Assembly: GCA_015222055.1 (NCBI GenBank)
Contig: JADFUR010000062.1
Coordinates: 1-60,263, forward strand
Length of the DNA: 60,263 nucleotides
Direction: 5' to 3'
Source of the DNA: Bacteroidota bacterium
Lineage (GTDB): Bacteria > Bacteroidota > Bacteroidia > Bacteroidales > B39-G9
The notes below the pieces were generated by a model that was not told the DNA's origin, did no database searches, and saw only the letters and a program-made list of their open reading frames with translations. The position numbers and the translations under genes are program-made. Below, in pieces: positions 1 through 7,576 of this stretch (positions are counted from its first letter, which is position 1; every line of letters begins with the position of its first letter).

Positions 1-1149
1 GAAATTGTGTTTTTTCTTTTTGAGCATTTATTTTTAAAAGAAAAAAAAAGTTTGCTTTTTTTTATTTGGGGACAAGAAATATTTAGCGACAACAGCAAGT
101 ATTTGTTTGAGTATCTAAACAAAAAAAATGATTTTGAAGTAAATCTTTTTGTAAAAGACAAAAAGATTTATAAAGAATTGTTTCGAAAATATCCCCAACA
201 AACAATATATGCATTAAGTTTGAAGGGATTTAAGCTTTTTTTTAAATCCAAAACCGTTATTATTTCTAATGGTCTTGATAAATTTTATTTTTTACCGTAT
301 TATTTAAGTCCACGAAATAAAAATATTATTCAGTTATGGCATGGTAGCCTGTTTAAGCGATTAGGTTTTCAAGTAAAAAATTGGGAAAAAATTAAAAGCA
401 AAAAAGTATTTCAAAAGTATTCAAAATTTATTGTTTGCTCTACTCTTGAAAGATTTATGGTGTCGTCTTGTTTCGATATGAAAATTGATGATGTGTGGGT
501 TTGCGATTATCCACGTAACGATTATTTTTTTAACACCGATAATAATTTATTAGAAGAACATCCGTATTTAAACAGTAAAGTAATATTATACGCACCTACT
601 TGGAGGGAAGAAGGATATAAAGTTAAGTTTTTTCCTTTTGAAGATGCTGATATTGCTCAAATACAAAATTTTCTTGAACAAAACGATACTTATCTCTTAA
701 TAAGAGGACATAAAGAAGAGTGTGAAAGAATATATAACAACTACGATTTACCAATAGACCAAACTAGTAGAATATTGCCAGCAAGTCAGGAAATATTTCC
801 TGATGGTGAAAAATTATTACAATATGTAAATATATTGATTACTGATTATTCCGGAATTTATAACGATTTTTTACTACTTAACAGGCCGATAGTATTTATC
901 CCCTATGATTTAAAAGAATACTCAACTTACAGAGGGGTTTTGCTTAACTATGATAAATTTACAGCAGGACCAAAAGTTTTTAATCAGAAAGATTTTTTAA
1001 ATGAGATTGAAGCCTATCTTAACAATCCAAAGAAAGATTCTGAATTGAGATTGAAATTGAGAGATGTCTTTCATGATTATTCAGATGGAAAAGCTTGTGA
1101 AAGGATAGAAAATTATATTGTTGAATTTTTAAATGAGAAAAATAATTAA
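1..1149 (+). CDS. CDP-glycerol glycerophosphotransferase family protein (5' end possibly outside window)
   Basis: This is a TagB/TagF-like transferase (Glyphos_transf family) that moves a glycerol-phosphate or similar phospho-alditol from a CDP-activated donor to a surface glycan at the inner face of the membrane. Family landmarks in order are QLWHGSLFKRLG (about residue 110), CDYPRND (about 165), ILYAPTWREEG (about 195) and a C-terminal block containing ITDYSGIYNDFLLLNRP then PYDLKEY and RGVLLNYDKFTAGP. The frame is open to base 1; GTG at 7 is the first possible start in the window, so the true start may lie upstream. It is followed after 24 bases by methyltransferase genes on the same strand. 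The neighbouring phosphonate operon makes an unusual CMP- or CDP-linked donor a real possibility, but the donor is inference. Confidence 0.85.
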   Translation, partial: EIVFFLFEHLFLKEKKSLLFFIWGQEIFSDNSKYLFEYLNKKNDFEVNLFVKDKKIYKELFRKYPQQTIYALSLKGFKLFFKSKTVIISNGLDKFYFLPYYLSPRNKNIIQLWHGSLFKRLGFQVKNWEKIKSKKVFQKYSKFIVCSTLERFMVSSCFDMKIDDVWVCDYPRNDYFFNTDNNLLEEHPYLNSKVILYAPTWREEGYKVKFFPFEDADIAQIQNFLEQNDTYLLIRGHKEECERIYNNYDLPIDQTSRILPASQEIFPDGEKLLQYVNILITDYSGIYNDFLLLNRPIVFIPYDLKEYSTYRGVLLNYDKFTAGPKVFNQKDFLNEIEAYLNNPKKDSELRLKLRDVFHDYSDGKACERIENYIVEFLNEKNN

Positions 1150-1173: not shown

Positions 1174-1989
1174 ATGAAAACATTTAATTGCCCTATATGC
1201 TCTTCTGAATTAATAAAAACAGGATATAGAAACATAATATTTAATGCAGAAAATTATTATTGTTCCAATTGCCATTCTTATCATATAATGTCTTATTTTG
1301 ATTTTTCTGATTATTATGCAAAACAATATCATGATGATTTTTCATTCGTGAAAGCAAAAAAACATTATAAATTATTTTGTGGCTTTCAGAATTCAAGAGC
1401 ATATTCCAGATGTAGATTTTTTAGAAAACACACCCAGAAACAAAGGTTCGATAATTTTTTAGAAATCGGGGGAGGAAATGGCCAAAATTTTTTAGTTTTC
1501 GATTTATTTAATAAACCTAAATCATATATTATTGTTGAACCAAATATAAAATTTAATATTAACAAACCAAATTTAAGATATTATAACAATCTTTTTGAAA
1601 ACACTGAAGATTCTTCTTTAGGGAAAGTAGATTTAATAATGTTATTTCATGTATTGGAACATATATATGATGTTAATAGTTTTTTAGAAAGGGTTAGAAA
1701 ATAGGGTTGTAAGTATATGTTTTTTGAGGTTCTGAATATTGAAAATAAAAAAGTTTTAGAAGAAGATCTTTTAAATTACCCTCATTATCATCACTATTCA
1801 ATAAAATCTTTAGAATGTCTTTTTAAATCGACGAATATTAATGATTATAAATTATTTGGGATTAATCCAATTACTTATCATCCATATAAAAAAGTGCCTT
1901 TTTTAAAGCGTATAATATTTAAAGGATTAGGAATAAATGAAATTATTGACAAAAAAGGATTATATATTAGAGGATTAATAAAATTTTAA
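1174..1989 (+). pseudogene. Class I SAM methyltransferase interrupted by one in-frame TAG
   Basis: Two open segments (1174-1704 and 1717-1989) lie in the same reading frame and are separated only by TAG at 1702-1704 and four further codons. Joined, they give about 271 codons. The N-terminal half has a CPICSSEL...YYCSNCHSY zinc-ribbon-like pair of CxxC motifs, a glycine-rich SAM loop (LEIGGGNGQNF) and LIMLFHVLEHIYD. The second half begins FFEVLNIEN, the strand expected just after the stop in methyltransferase_23-type proteins, and ends with PHYHHYSIKSLECLF. The stop falls between the post-motif helix and that strand, so neither fragment is likely to be active alone. TAG is used as an ordinary terminator by other genes here (for example at 2639 and 18130), which argues against reassignment. 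Either a nonsense mutation or a base error explains it. The likely role is glycan modification in this cluster. Confidence 0.75.
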
Positions 1990-1990
1990 C

Positions 1991-2641
1991 ATGAAATATA
2001 AATATAAAACACACACACAATTTAAAAAAACCAGAGATGAAGTTCTTTTAGAATATTGTGACGGTAAGAAAGTTTTGCATATTGGAGCAACAGATTCTCC
2101 ATATACAGAACAAAAATTTTCAGATAACTTGCTTTTGCATACTAAAATTCAAAAGAAAGCAAGTGAATTACTAGGAATTGATATTGATAAAGATTCAATA
2201 GATTTTTTATGTAAAAAGGGTGTTGATAATATTATTGAGTTTAACATGAATAATTTAAAAGAGCTGAATTTTGAACCAGAGATAATTATTTTTGGAGAAA
2301 CTATAGAACATTTAATGAATCAAGAGATTGCTTTGTCTATTTTGAAAAAAAGCATGAATAAAGACACAAAATTACTTGTTTCAACACCAAATGCTATGTG
2401 GCTAAATAAAATAATAGATACTTTTAAATTTCAGGAAATTCAGCATACAGATCATAAAATGATTTTTAGCTATGCAACAATAAAAAATTTGTTTGAAACA
2501 AATGGTTTTGTTTTAGATACTCTATATTTTACATTTCTGAATCGTAAACGCGAAGGGGGGACAAAATTTTTTAAAAAATGTTTTTGTAAAATTTTTATGG
2601 GCTTTTCAGAGACAATTGTTGCTGTTATAAAATTGGCATAG
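1991..2641 (+). CDS. Class I SAM-dependent methyltransferase
   Basis: The 216-residue protein has a Rossmann-type methyltransferase layout: KKVLHIGATDSPYTE is a degenerate motif I (residues about 26-40), LLGIDIDKDSIDFL is the acidic strand-2 motif, and EIIIFGETIEHLMN is the post-motif II segment common in methyltransferase_11/23 proteins. LLVSTPNAMWL and HKMIFSYATIKNLFETNGF complete the fold. The gene starts one base after the preceding interrupted methyltransferase, so the two are almost certainly co-transcribed and probably act on the same polysaccharide or its lipid carrier. The substrate cannot be read from the sequence. It ends convergently with the KpsS-like gene on the other strand, only 5 bases away. 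Confidence 0.8.
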   Translation: MKYKYKTHTQFKKTRDEVLLEYCDGKKVLHIGATDSPYTEQKFSDNLLLHTKIQKKASELLGIDIDKDSIDFLCKKGVDNIIEFNMNNLKELNFEPEIIIFGETIEHLMNQEIALSILKKSMNKDTKLLVSTPNAMWLNKIIDTFKFQEIQHTDHKMIFSYATIKNLFETNGFVLDTLYFTFLNRKREGGTKFFKKCFCKIFMGFSETIVAVIKLA

Positions 2642-2646
2642 AATTA

Positions 2647-4026
2647 TTATTTAAAATGCAATCTTAATTTATCTAAACTTTTTTGAAATTTTTCAGGGTC
2701 TGTGTTTGCTTTAATATTACCAACACCGAAATAATTGAAATGATAGAAATTTTTGTAAATAATTTTTGCAAATAAATTGAAATTTTCACTTTTTACGGAT
2801 TTGTCATAGCATTCAATTGCTTGGCGCAAATTTTTAAATTTATCTGTATATTCTAATAAGAAATTAAATCCTGAATATAGCGATTCTCCAAAGGAAATAA
2901 CCTTTTTTCCAGAGAGTAATGCATCAATTCCAAATGTTGAATTAATTGTTGCTATTATATCGTATTCATTTTTTTCAAAAGTATCGACTAATCTAATTTG
3001 AGGGAATTTAGATGATAATTTATTCAATACGAGTATGATTAGTTTATTGTACTTGTTTTGTTCTGCAGGATGGAGTTTAAAATCAACATAGATATTACTA
3101 TCAATAAGCTTAACAATATTTTGAATGAAATCAACAGGGGATTTATATTTTGAAAAAACATGTAGTTGTGTGTCACTATATATTTGCAGAGGAATTAAAA
3201 TTTTATATATAGGTTCTTTGCTTTCAGGTATAGAGAAGTAATTTAAATCTAACCATTCACCACGATTTATTAGTTGAGAAAGATACTTTTCCTTTTCGAA
3301 ATTTAATTTAAACTTTGTTTTTAAAGTTTTAAATAGATTAAAACGGCTTCCGTTTCTGAATAAATAATTTTGAAATCCAGATAGAAAAAAATATGCTTTG
3401 ACAACTTTTTTTTGATTTGATTGAGGTATTTTTTTTTGATTTGCTTTTAATGATAATAAAATTTTTTTATACTTGTCGCCTATCGGAGATTCTGAATCAA
3501 TGGTTTTTAATTGATTTTTAAAATCGTTTCGTATTGATGAATAGTAATTTGTTCCCTTTTTATCAAAATAAATAGTTTGTGGAAAATTCGTTATTTCTCC
3601 AAAAAATACAGTTCCTTTACATTGGATTATCGCTTTAGAAAAAGCAAGAGCTTCACTTTTATTACCACTCCAGCATAACCCGATAGAATTTTTTTCTATT
3701 TTATTTGAAATCCATTCGATATTGTACAAGTACTGACTTTTTGCTTTTTGGGGAGACTTGCCAAAATATTGAATTAAGTAGTTTAATACTTTAGTTTCTC
3801 TTCCATCTAAATCTCTTTCTGGTTTTCTCTTTTTTTTATTGTAATACGGAGGGATAAGATAAACCGTATGAAAAACTTTTTTAAATCTTTTTTGTGATTT
3901 AATAGTTAAAAATAGTGAAATATTGTCACTAAACACAATGACTTCGTTTTTGGTTTCTAAAAATTCAAATAAACTTAAATAAAAAAAAGCATGATTAAGA
4001 TGTTGTACGTAAACATATGTTTTCAT
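2647..4026 (-). CDS. KpsS/LipB-like capsule polysaccharide transferase family protein
   Basis: The 459-residue protein resembles the Capsule_synth (KpsS/LipB) family, whose characterised members are Kdo glycosyltransferases that act on capsule lipid anchors. Matching signatures are IPLQIYSDTQLHVFSKYKSP (residues 278-297), VDFKLHPAEQNKY (314-326) and ATINSTFGIDALLSGKKVISFGES (359-382). The last is the donor-nucleotide region typical of these GT-B enzymes. No signal peptide or membrane span is visible, which suggests a cytoplasmic enzyme. The gene is the last of a four-gene operon, 6 bases after the phosphonate alcohol dehydrogenase gene. That placement makes it a candidate for attaching the phosphonate, or the sugar carrying it, to the surface polymer; this is inference, and ordinary glycan chemistry is equally possible. 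Confidence 0.65.
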   Translation of the reverse strand: MKTYVYVQHLNHAFFYLSLFEFLETKNEVIVFSDNISLFLTIKSQKRFKKVFHTVYLIPPYYNKKKRKPERDLDGRETKVLNYLIQYFGKSPQKAKSQYLYNIEWISNKIEKNSIGLCWSGNKSEALAFSKAIIQCKGTVFFGEITNFPQTIYFDKKGTNYYSSIRNDFKNQLKTIDSESPIGDKYKKILLSLKANQKKIPQSNQKKVVKAYFFLSGFQNYLFRNGSRFNLFKTLKTKFKLNFEKEKYLSQLINRGEWLDLNYFSIPESKEPIYKILIPLQIYSDTQLHVFSKYKSPVDFIQNIVKLIDSNIYVDFKLHPAEQNKYNKLIILVLNKLSSKFPQIRLVDTFEKNEYDIIATINSTFGIDALLSGKKVISFGESLYSGFNFLLEYTDKFKNLRQAIECYDKSVKSENFNLFAKIIYKNFYHFNYFGVGNIKANTDPEKFQKSLDKLRLHFK

Positions 4027-4032
4027 AAAAAT

Positions 4033-5151
4033 TTATTTTAATATAGCATTAATAAACGTTTGTGATATTTTTCTAGGATTGTTTTTCATCCTTTCGGAAT
4101 TAATATTATCTAATATAATTTTAGCGTCAAAATTGTTCCCAATAAGCTTTTTTATGCTCGTTTCAATGCCTAACGAGAGAATAAATTCTGTTAGTGTGCT
4201 TTCTAAATTTTTTGTTTTTATGTTAATTAAAGTGCACATATCTTCTATGCTTTTCTTTACAAAAGAAGCTCCTCTTTTGTCGTTGCAATCATTTTCTGTA
4301 ACATTATAGTTAAATTCAAGAAAATGAGCTAAAGTTAATGCTACGGCGTGACCATGAGGGATTTTATAATGACTCGTAAAAGAATATGACACGGCGTGTG
4401 GAGCTGTTGTCTTTGCAATATTTATTGCTTTGCCAGCTAAATGAGACGCCCAAGATACTTTTTCTTTAGCTTTTTCATCATTTTTATTCACAGCCAATGG
4501 GAGATTATCCCATAAAACTTTTATTGCTTTCGTCGAATATTCTATGGATTCTTTATTAGAATTTACGCTCCAGTATGATTCTATAGCTTGAGCAAAAGCA
4601 TCAAGCCCTGTAACTGCTGTTAAATATTTTGAGGCTGAAAAAGCAAATGCAGGGTTTATTAGAACTGTTTCGGGTAATAATTTATTACTTGATACTGAAT
4701 ATTTTTTTTGGTCAACATAAGCAACTGCAAAATGAGTAGCTTCGCTTCCCGTTCCTGATGTTGTAGGTAAGGCAATAAAAGGTACAACACTGCCATTTGT
4801 AGTGTTTGAAATAATAAGTGTTTTTAAATTGCCTTGTTCTGAGTGAAAAATGTTAATCAATTTTGCCATATCAATAACGCTTCCACCTCCCACAGCCATT
4901 ATCAAATCACAATTGTTTTTGTTAAATAAAGATATTCCTCTTTCAACATCTTCAACTTTGGGGTTTCGCTCAAAGTCATAAAATGTTACATGACAAAAGT
5001 CGCTTAAAATTGGTTCTATTTCTTTATCTGCACCAGAATAGGTGTAAGAATTTTTTCCCCTTACAAGAAGAATTTTTTTAGGCGATTTTTCAGAAAGTAT
5101 CTTTTTTAAAAAAGATACTGCATCATATCCAAATTTAACTGTTTGTGTCAT
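4033..5151 (-). CDS. Iron-type alcohol dehydrogenase, probable phosphonoacetaldehyde reductase
   Basis: This 372-residue member of the Fe-ADH/dehydroquinate-synthase-like fold has the NAD-binding loop AVGGGSVIDMAK (86-97), ALPTTSGTGSEATH (127-140), the metal-ligand aspartate D184 in TGLDAFAQAIESYWS, H252 in TAPHAVSY, and H266/H268 in IPHGHAVAL. Q188 sits where ordinary iron alcohol dehydrogenases carry a metal-binding histidine. I recall a glutamine here in phosphonate-pathway members but could not check it. It directly follows phosphonopyruvate decarboxylase with a one-base overlap (ATG at 5149-5151, stop of the previous gene at 5151-5153). The expected reaction is reduction of phosphonoacetaldehyde to 2-hydroxyethylphosphonate. 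Because no aminotransferase is present, hydroxyethyl- rather than aminoethylphosphonate is the predicted product. Confidence 0.85.
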   Translation of the reverse strand: MTQTVKFGYDAVSFLKKILSEKSPKKILLVRGKNSYTYSGADKEIEPILSDFCHVTFYDFERNPKVEDVERGISLFNKNNCDLIMAVGGGSVIDMAKLINIFHSEQGNLKTLIISNTTNGSVVPFIALPTTSGTGSEATHFAVAYVDQKKYSVSSNKLLPETVLINPAFAFSASKYLTAVTGLDAFAQAIESYWSVNSNKESIEYSTKAIKVLWDNLPLAVNKNDEKAKEKVSWASHLAGKAINIAKTTAPHAVSYSFTSHYKIPHGHAVALTLAHFLEFNYNVTENDCNDKRGASFVKKSIEDMCTLINIKTKNLESTLTEFILSLGIETSIKKLIGNNFDAKIILDNINSERMKNNPRKISQTFINAILK

Positions 5152-6275
5152 TATTTTAGGGTGCTCATAAAATTATTTTTGTTTTCAATAGTAGTTAAAG
5201 TTGGTCTTCCAAGATTTTTTCTGGCTCCTTTATTAATTTTAACTTCTAGCAAAGCTGGCCCTTCGGTGTTTTTAAGTTTGATAATATTTTCCGACAAGCT
5301 TTTTTTATCATCGGCGATAAATACTTTTTTGTAATTAAAACCTTTGGCAATAGATTTAAAATCAATGCTGTGGCCAATTGTTGGTTGGCCTCCTACAGAA
5401 TCGTGAGCTCCATTATTAAAAATAATATGCTTATAATTTTTTGGGCATAAACTTCCAATAATTCCCATCGATCCGGTATGCATAATTACAGCACCGTCAC
5501 CGTCAAAACAAAAAATTTGTTTTTCTTTTTTTTGTAGGGCTATTCCCAAAGCTATTTGACTTGAATGGCCCATAGATCCAACTGTTAAAAAATCATTTTG
5601 ATGACCTTGGCATAACTCTTCTCTATATTCAAATAATTCCCTAGATGTTTTCCCTGTTGTTGATACAATTATATCATCCTTATTAAGAGCGTCTACAATT
5701 ATTTTAATTGCATCTTCTCTTTTCATTTCAAAATTTGTTTTTACCTTATTTTTTAATTCATAAGGCTCAAATAAATTTTTTCTAACAACAAAAGCAAAAG
5801 GACTGCTACTTTTTTTTATATGTTTTATTGATTTTTCAATTACAAGCTTTGCTTTTTCAAATTCCTCAGGTAATATTTCATAAGGAATATTCATTGCTTC
5901 AAGCAATTTTGTTGTTACTTCTCCTTGCTTAATATGCTGTGGTTCATCTTTTATGCCGGGTTCTCCTCGCCAACCAATCATTAATAATATTGGAATACTG
6001 TATACTTTTTCGTCAACCAGAGATAATAATGGATTAATTGCGTTCCCAATACCTGAATTCTGCATATATATTAGCGGAATTTTCCCTGTAGCAAGATGAT
6101 AGCCTGCACCTAAAGCAATTGCACCACCTTCGTTAGCAGCAATTATATTGTTTTCAGCCGCCACATTGTCTGTAAAATAAGCACATATGTTTTTTAAAAG
6201 AGAATCTGGTACTCCAGAAAAAAAATCAACACCATTTTTTTTTAATAATTCATAAAACGATTTAGTATTTATCAT
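5151..6275 (-). CDS. Phosphonopyruvate decarboxylase (ThDP-dependent)
   Basis: This enzyme decarboxylates phosphonopyruvate to phosphonoacetaldehyde, the irreversible step that pulls the unfavourable PEP mutase reaction forward. The 374-residue single-chain thiamine-diphosphate layout is clear: the catalytic glutamate E49 lies in [19 protein letters not shown], the pyrophosphate/Mg motif starts at FDGDGA (257-262), and the matching [11 protein letters not shown] block at 287-297 is highly characteristic of phosphonopyruvate and sulfopyruvate decarboxylases. Its start overlaps the end of the PEP mutase gene by four bases (ATGA), so the two are translationally coupled. Genomic context distinguishes it from sulfopyruvate decarboxylase: the upstream partner is PEP mutase. 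Confidence 0.93.
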
Positions 6276-7576
6276 CTTGTTCCGGGTATTAAATTAAGAA
6301 TTTCTTTAATCGATAAACATTTGTCATTAGCTTCGTATGACCTTTCGTTAATCAAAATTGATTTAGCTACGTCTACCATTGCAGGATAAGAACTTCTTAG
6401 CATGTGATTAGCATATATTACTACATTAACCCCTGCTTTAATTAGTTCATTTTCTGTTATTTGATTGTATGTGGTGGGGACGACAACCAATGGAATTTTG
6501 CTTTTGAATTTTTTATATTCTTCGCAAAAAGCTAATATTTCGTCGGGAGACTTTTCTTTACTATGAATCATTATTCCGTCAGCTCCTGCTTCTATATATG
6601 CTTTTGCTCTTTTTAATGCATCTTCTTGTCCTTGTTTTAGTATTAGACTTTCTATTCGGGCAATAATCATAAAATCTTCAGTAATTTGTGCATTTTTACC
6701 CATATTTATTTTATGACAAAAATTTTCAATTGTATCTTGACTTTGTGCAACATCTGTTCCAAATAAAGAATTCTTTTTTAAACCTATTTTGTCTTCAATA
6801 ATAATAGCAGAAATACCAAGTCTTTCGAGTGTTCTAACGGTAAAAACAAAATGTTCGGGTTTTCCTCCAGTATCACCATCATAAATTATGGGTTTTGTTG
6901 TGCATTCTAAGGTGTCGTTTAAACTATGAAGCCTGGTTGTAACATCAACTGCTTCTATATCTGGTTTGCCTTTTACCGTTGAGTCTGTTAAACTTGACGA
7001 CCACATGCCGTCAAATTCTTTTTTAATGCCATTAATTTCAACATTTGCATGCTCGCAAATTAATCCTGTTAAACCACTATGAGATTCGATTATTCTAACA
7101 ATTGGTTTTGCGTCAATTAATCGTTTTAATTTTTTTTGTCTTATTTCGGGTGTTGTTCCAATTTCTTTTATGCTTTTATTTAATCGTGTAGATGAAATTC
7201 CCTGTGTATAAGGTATCTCAATTAATTTTCCACCCCATTCTTTAAGAGTTTTGCATACATTTTCTCTAATGTCTTTTTGTACTCCTTTTGCCCAATCATC
7301 GCCATGTACAACAAAATCAGGTTTGAGTTTTTTTAGGTTTGGAACATAGTCTAAGGTAGTTTGTGGTACAACATTAACAACGCCCTTAATGTTTTCAATT
7401 ATTAATTTTCTTTGTTCAAAAGTCATATAAGGAAGCCGCTTATAGCTTGCAATAGCCTTATCGGTTAATACACCAACAGTTAATGTTCCCAACTTTTTTG
7501 CTTCATTGATAATATTTAAGTGACCTGGATGAATTATGTCTGCACTCATTCCTACATATACTGTTTTTCCTTGCAT
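6272..7576 (-). CDS. Cytidylyltransferase-phosphoenolpyruvate mutase fusion
   Basis: Residues 1-135 form a nucleotidyltransferase of the tagD/PCT type: HPGH at 16-19 (the HxGH nucleotide motif), [11 protein letters not shown] at 88-98 and ISSTRLN at 127-133. Residues from about 145 to 434 form phosphoenolpyruvate mutase: [12 protein letters not shown] at 188-199, YDGDTGG at 232-238 and the diagnostic EDKxxxxxNS motif at 261-270, which separates true PEP mutases from isocitrate-lyase relatives. PEP mutase converts PEP to phosphonopyruvate, the entry to almost all phosphonates. The fused N-terminal domain is expected to activate the end product with CTP, as PntC-type enzymes do. It is the first gene of a compact operon and starts 46 bases from the next divergent track. 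The domain fusion joins the first and a late step of one pathway in one chain. Confidence 0.92.

Follow-up and report, generated by a model that had tools for sequence, protein, structure and literature searches.

A KpsS-like protein in a CMP-hydroxyethylphosphonate island is a probable Kdo transferase beside a likelier phosphonyl transferase

Which enzyme moves an activated phosphonate onto its acceptor is the question raised by a small gene island in contig JADFUR010000062.1 of a Bacteroidota bacterium, analyzed here as one stretch of 60,263 nucleotides (the window). In passages of Rice et al. (2019, PMC6697681), the steps of surface phosphonate pathways that follow C–P bond formation are called enigmatic. 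The original prediction was that a KpsS-like gene in the island's phosphonate operon encodes a phosphonate-glycan transferase, with the nearby CDP-glycerol-type transferase gene (PF04464) as an alternative candidate.

The genes for CT/PepM, Ppd, Fe-ADH and the KpsS-like protein form a single tight unit that runs from 7576 to 2647 on the reverse strand (Table 1). Ppd overlaps CT-PepM by 4 bases and Fe-ADH by 1 base, and the KpsS-like frame, which opens with ATG, starts after a gap of 6 bases (4027–4032) behind the Fe-ADH stop codon, as originally described. The N-terminal domain of CT/PepM (residues 1–139) scores 211 bits against PDB 5x3d_A, an entry for a PEP mutase; we take this entry to be the HEP cytidylyltransferase domain of Fom1. 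An Fe-ADH stands in place of an aminotransferase, so the product would be HEP rather than AEP. For comparison, Fom1 is described as making CMP-HEP in a passage of Rice et al. (2019, PMC6697681). The CT/PepM–Ppd–FeADH operon should make CMP-2-hydroxyethylphosphonate (CMP-HEP). By eye, neither a polymerase nor an exporter was seen in the island (window ORFs plus the adjoining contig C83), and the only other glycan-polymer gene there is a GT4-like gene upstream of the PF04464 gene. One of two neighboring methyltransferase genes contains an in-frame TAG at 1702–1704, with the same frame continuing to 1989; this gene may be broken, or the codon may reflect an assembly error or read-through.

Table 1 Features of the phosphonate island and motif positions in the KpsS-like gene.
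Feature	Position	Strand	Basis
PF04464 CDP-glycerol-type transferase, C-terminal 382 of 409 aa; best CMP-HEP transferase candidate	1..1149	+	209 bits
Methyltransferase gene, in-frame TAG	1174..1992	+	ORF reading, profile match
Second methyltransferase, convergent with KpsS-like gene	1991..2641	+	ORF list, profile match
KpsS-like PF05159 protein, 459 aa; likely retaining CMP-Kdo-type glycosyltransferase	2647..4026	-	Pfam, motifs, profile
NST motif (362-364), CMP-phosphate binding position	2935..2943	-	alignment, published motif definitions
KXHP motif (K317-P320), CMP binding by motif	3067..3078	-	alignment, published motif definitions
QXXXD motif (Q281-D285): Kdo-carboxylate Gln and nucleophile Asp	3172..3186	-	alignment, published motif definitions
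Glu144, position of WbbB general base	3595..3597	-	by alignment
Iron-containing alcohol dehydrogenase (Fe-ADH); presumed phosphonoacetaldehyde reductase yielding HEP	4033..5151	-	profile matches
Phosphonopyruvate decarboxylase (Ppd)	5151..6275	-	TIGR03297 500.6 bits, cut-off 312.5
Cytidylyltransferase (PF01467) fused to PEP mutase (CT/PepM)	6272..7576	-	TIGR02320 416.4 bits, cut-off 319.55

The KpsS-like protein belongs to PF05159 (Capsule_synth; 41.7 bits, E 1.3e-10, cut-off 20), the sole Pfam family above its cut-off. Searches with phmmer reach crystallized KpsC at E 3e-4, and a profile of seven sequences including the KpsS-like protein matches KpsC (4e-14) and WbbB (2e-10) in the PDB, placing the family assignment of the original prediction beyond chance. 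Its identity to the six aligned homologues is 18–27%, and one of these matches the KpsS model at 440 bits. The window protein itself gave no match to the NCBIfam KpsS equivalog (NF050054) at E ≤ 1, and it is the only PF05159 protein encoded in its genome. If KpsC falls under PF05159, as we assume, this single gene means that the genome has no KpsC partner; inspection of the window ORFs by eye showed no ABC exporter of the kind that serves a group 2 KpsS. Identity as a canonical capsule KpsS was rejected on the lack of an equivalog match and the single PF05159 gene.

Passages on the active sites of KpsC, WbbB and KrkA (PMC10148158, PMC12887879) describe a recurring QXXXD motif, with an Asp nucleophile and a Gln for the Kdo carboxylate, together with (K/R)XHP, a Ser at the CMP phosphate and a general-base Glu. 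The KpsS-like protein retains every motif residue named there for retaining Kdo transferases. Twenty columns are invariant in the seven-protein alignment, including E144, Q281, D285, Q287, K317, H319, P320, N362, S363 and T364; E144 is present in all seven proteins, and its alignment to the WbbB Glu is a weak, sub-threshold segment. The two motifs quoted in the original prediction, TINSTFGIDALLSGKK (residues 360–375) and LHPAEQ (318–323), are both in place, and the most important catalytic features, QXXXD and E144, were missing from its list. Because the motifs that define β-Kdo transferases are kept, Kdo chemistry appears likelier than phosphonyl transfer. The genome's sole PF02348 protein is KdsB, so CMP-Kdo should be available, nor did the genome show a synthetase of this family for CMP-sialate or CMP-pseudaminate. 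The KpsS-like protein is not of a known phosphotransferase family (PF04464 or LicD). A single-sequence structure model reached a pLDDT of 36, too poor for analysis of the donor pocket. We dropped the argument that a CMP-linked phosphonate is chemically close to CMP-Kdo, as the nucleotide is common to both but the attacked atom is different. Transfer of Kdo takes place at the anomeric carbon of the sugar; with a CMP-phosphonate the attack has to fall on phosphorus, as it does in CDP-glycerol enzymes.

Three CT-PepM proteins were used to search 84,980 species genomes, where 345 relatives were found, and we surveyed the loci of the best 80 of these, with ORFs taken from a simple script rather than a gene finder. 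The slot was defined as a same-strand gene no more than 150 bases behind Fe-ADH and could be assessed at 51 of the 80 loci; contig ends, strand changes, wide gaps, an Fe-ADH that was upstream or not found, or an uncalled pepM ORF removed the other 29. Among these 51 slot genes from the best 80 of 345 relatives, Pfam assigns 20 to PF04464 and 15 to LicD, with one (L116) in both, so that 34 carry one or the other. Similarity labels, again within the best 80 of 345, gave 26 of 60 at position +1 and 0–3 at each of 11 other positions, an enrichment limited to a single position. At the level of predicted families, the gene directly behind Fe-ADH proved to be a transferase slot. One of the 51 slot genes (best 80 of 345) encodes a PF01066 protein, and two (L123 and L116) encode PF05159 modules, both fused to PF04464 and, in L116, to LicD as well.

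Several slot proteins deserve description in their own right. In Stenotrophomonas daejeonensis (L116:13566–17186, +), the 1206-residue protein behind Fe-ADH is a PF04464–PF05159–LicD fusion, and in Stenotrophomonas mori (L114:13639–16467, +) the 942-residue slot protein joins PF04464 to all four Stealth regions. The slot proteins of L076, L078 and L101 combine a hydrophobic N-terminus bearing 'Y-[IL]-DP' with a PF04464 domain and may form a subfamily of HEP transferases anchored in the membrane. Two records filed as Woesearchaeota archaeon (L107 and L124) hold bacterial HEP-type CT-PepM, Ppd and Fe-ADH, with CT-PepM 70–71% identical to the query, which may reflect gene transfer or misbinning.

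The wider occurrence of PF05159 was assessed in 77 of the best-80 genomes, where 10 of 47 and 3 of 30 genomes were positive, giving 13 genes. In seven of the 77 genomes the gene lies within the pepM locus (L071, L075, L087, L096, L116, L123 and L139), and all seven of these loci also hold PF04464 or LicD, adjacent or fused. Four of them share one 554-residue family, so the seven amount to about four independent cases. The remaining six genes fall outside the fetched pepM loci and include L156, which is GT4-like by eye and scores 20.3 bits. Among the in-locus proteins, only that of L116 combines QXXXD, KXHP and NS(T/G); the Asp is absent from L123 and QXXXD from L139, and in the 554-residue family (L071, L075, L087 and L096) His replaces the Gln of QXXXD, as judged by eye. 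This conserved PF05159-like family, from Ignavibacteria and Bacteroidetes MAGs, is encoded upstream of CT-PepM.

Of 395 genomes sampled from the phylum, 12 had a homologue of the KpsS-like protein (E ≤ 1e-3) and 10 had pepM (E ≤ 1e-50); the window's genome was the sole overlap, and pepM was found in none of the 11 other homologue-bearing genomes. Neighborhoods were inspected in four of these 11 (L061–L064): by eye, two have flippase and Glf-like genes and one has KpsE- and ABC-like genes, and no pepM match lies within ~20 kb in any of the four. The original prediction implied that homologues would travel with pepM, and the homologue count runs mostly against it; the part that stands is the recurrence of the PF05159 family, as distinct from homologues of this protein, in the loci of 7 of 77 HEP genomes (best 80 of 345). 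An earlier, class-level pepM search exceeded the cut-off in 1 of 247, the window's own, and searches of plasmid and phage collections gave no match, nor did scans of viral contigs for homologues yield anything useful. A weak PF05159 protein (27.2 bits) occurs in an AEP-type pepM cluster (L059), where its gene adjoins one that we label LicD-like.

The PF04464 protein of the window matches the TarL (E 2e-17) and TagF (5e-14) structures by phmmer. Contig C83 (L175) from this genome shares its final 42 bases with the start of the window, and the gene crosses this junction as one open frame of 409 residues; the GT4-like gene, so labeled by eye, lies upstream of it on C83. This is the genome's only PF04464 gene, it sits in the phosphonate island, and a profile search of the genome found no LicD. 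Five PF01467 proteins are encoded in the genome, namely the fused CT and four that resemble NadD, CoaD, RfaE-II and RibF; so assigned, they leave no glycerol-3-phosphate cytidylyltransferase of this family. CMP-HEP would be the obvious donor for the PF04464 enzyme, which is likely a better candidate for the CMP-HEP transferase than the KpsS-like protein. Thus, the alternative named in the original prediction is the better supported of its two candidates, given the slot survey and the genome inventory, and its remark that nothing else could use an activated phosphonate holds for the operon, although the island contains the PF04464 gene as well. There are counterpoints. The KpsS-like gene, not PF04464, fills the slot, which favors the original assignment, and the PF04464 gene lies on the strand opposite the HEP operon with its start on another contig. 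In addition, its product shows only 25–30% identity to its best matches among the PF04464 proteins of HEP loci and is no nearer to such proteins than to PF04464 proteins from other genomes of the phylum.

Gene families, motifs, operon structure, genome inventory and slot survey can be read directly from sequence. Building on them, we infer both donors, the acceptor and joint action on one glycan. In the explanation that we consider on balance probable, the island makes CMP-HEP and places HEP on a surface glycan, with the PF04464 enzyme transferring HEP and the KpsS-like partner adding Kdo. CT/PepM, Ppd and Fe-ADH would synthesize HEP and activate it to CMP-HEP. The PF04464 enzyme would then move HEP from CMP-HEP with CMP as the leaving group, as CDP-glycerol enzymes do. 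Meanwhile, the KpsS-like protein would act as a retaining glycosyltransferase akin to KpsS, KpsC and WbbB: CMP-Kdo would give up its sugar to form a covalent adduct with Asp285, from which Kdo would pass to the glycan that carries, or receives, HEP. A fair guess for the acceptor is a decorated lipooligosaccharide core, since no polymerase or exporter was seen in the island. A counterpoint is that most PF05159 proteins of pepM loci lack parts of the motif set. What this explanation retains of the proposed phosphonate-glycan transferase is membership in the HEP system, the slot position and the recurrence of PF05159 at pepM loci; it parts from it on the use of CMP-HEP, given the Kdo motifs.

One competing possibility is that the KpsS-like protein is itself the CMP-HEP transferase, in place of the enzyme (PF04464 or LicD) that other HEP operons carry. 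Its gene occupies the slot 6 bases behind Fe-ADH and is the genome's sole PF05159 gene, the slot proteins of two proteobacterial HEP operons contain PF05159 modules, and the protein belongs to a CMP-binding fold family. However, both of those slot proteins also contain PF04464, and one LicD too; the Kdo-transferase motif set is complete; pepM is missing from all 11 further genomes of the phylum sample that encode a homologue; and the genome has a PF04464 enzyme for which no supply of CDP-glycerol is known. We consider this possibility unlikely but reserve some probability for it, because the KpsS-like gene holds the slot, the PF04464 gene is on the other strand, its product is no nearer to the PF04464 proteins of HEP slots than to others, and the structure model is poor. 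A specific form, in which a Kdo transferase was recruited to phosphonyl transfer and Asp285 serves as the covalent carrier of the phosphonyl group from CMP-HEP, filling the PF04464/LicD slot, seems quite unlikely.

Comparably improbable to direct use of CMP-HEP is a role for the KpsS-like protein as an ordinary CMP-ulosonate transferase that builds a surface glycan and shares the operon with no part in HEP tailoring. The nearest homologues (L061–L063) do sit among sugar-glycan genes with no pepM match in ~20 kb, but the island holds no other glycan-polymer genes except the GT4 gene upstream of PF04464, and PF05159 recurs at HEP operons, even within fusions. We regard as very unlikely a route that bypasses both PF04464 and PF05159 and in which a CDP-alcohol phosphatidyltransferase, encoded at another genomic site, leaves HEP attached to a lipid or as a free compound. 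The single PF01066 protein among 51 slot genes (best 80 of 345), and a gene labeled PF01066-like by eye near AEP-type pepM genes in other Bacteroidota, are consistent with such a route; by contrast, no CDP-alcohol phosphatidyltransferase was seen in the island, and the slot statistics favor glycan phosphotransferases.

More broadly, the survey points to one operon position for the presumed CMP-HEP transferase and to two families, PF04464 and LicD, that occupy it, with PF05159 modules as recurrent partners at HEP loci, even as fusions. In the titles, abstracts and passages that we covered of the open-access literature, we found no KpsS-like or PF04464 protein described as a phosphonate transferase. 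The natural fusions in L114, L116 and L123, together with a genome that has one PF04464 and one PF05159 gene, bring the question within reach of assays on a small set of purified proteins. Phosphonyl transfer by a KpsS-like protein, if true, would be new chemistry for the PF05159 fold.

The KpsS-like protein shares PF05159, QXXXD, KXHP, NST and the general-base Glu with KpsS and KpsC (GT107), the β-Kdo transferases of group 2 capsules, but it is only 18–27% identical to its six aligned homologues, does not match the KpsS equivalog and is encoded beside pepM. By motif, its catalytic scheme is also that of WbbB (GT99), which is reached by profile, and of KpsS1 (GT118). The donor of KpsS1 is described as CMP-Pse, whereas in the window's genome KdsB is unaccompanied by any gene of the PseF/NeuA type. 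The PF04464 family is common to the window gene and the TarF/TagF/TarL-type transferases that use CDP-glycerol and CDP-ribitol; in contrast to those systems, the genome has no glycerol-3-phosphate cytidylyltransferase, and the window gene accompanies CMP-HEP genes. Finally, as far as passages of Rice et al. (2019, PMC6697681) describe them, PntC/LicD phosphonyl tailoring and Fom1 have in common with this operon the PepM–cytidylyltransferase fusion and the logic of a CMP-phosphonate. Unlike the PntC/LicD systems, the window's genome has no LicD, and its operon combines a PF01467 fusion with an Fe-ADH, pointing to HEP rather than AEP.
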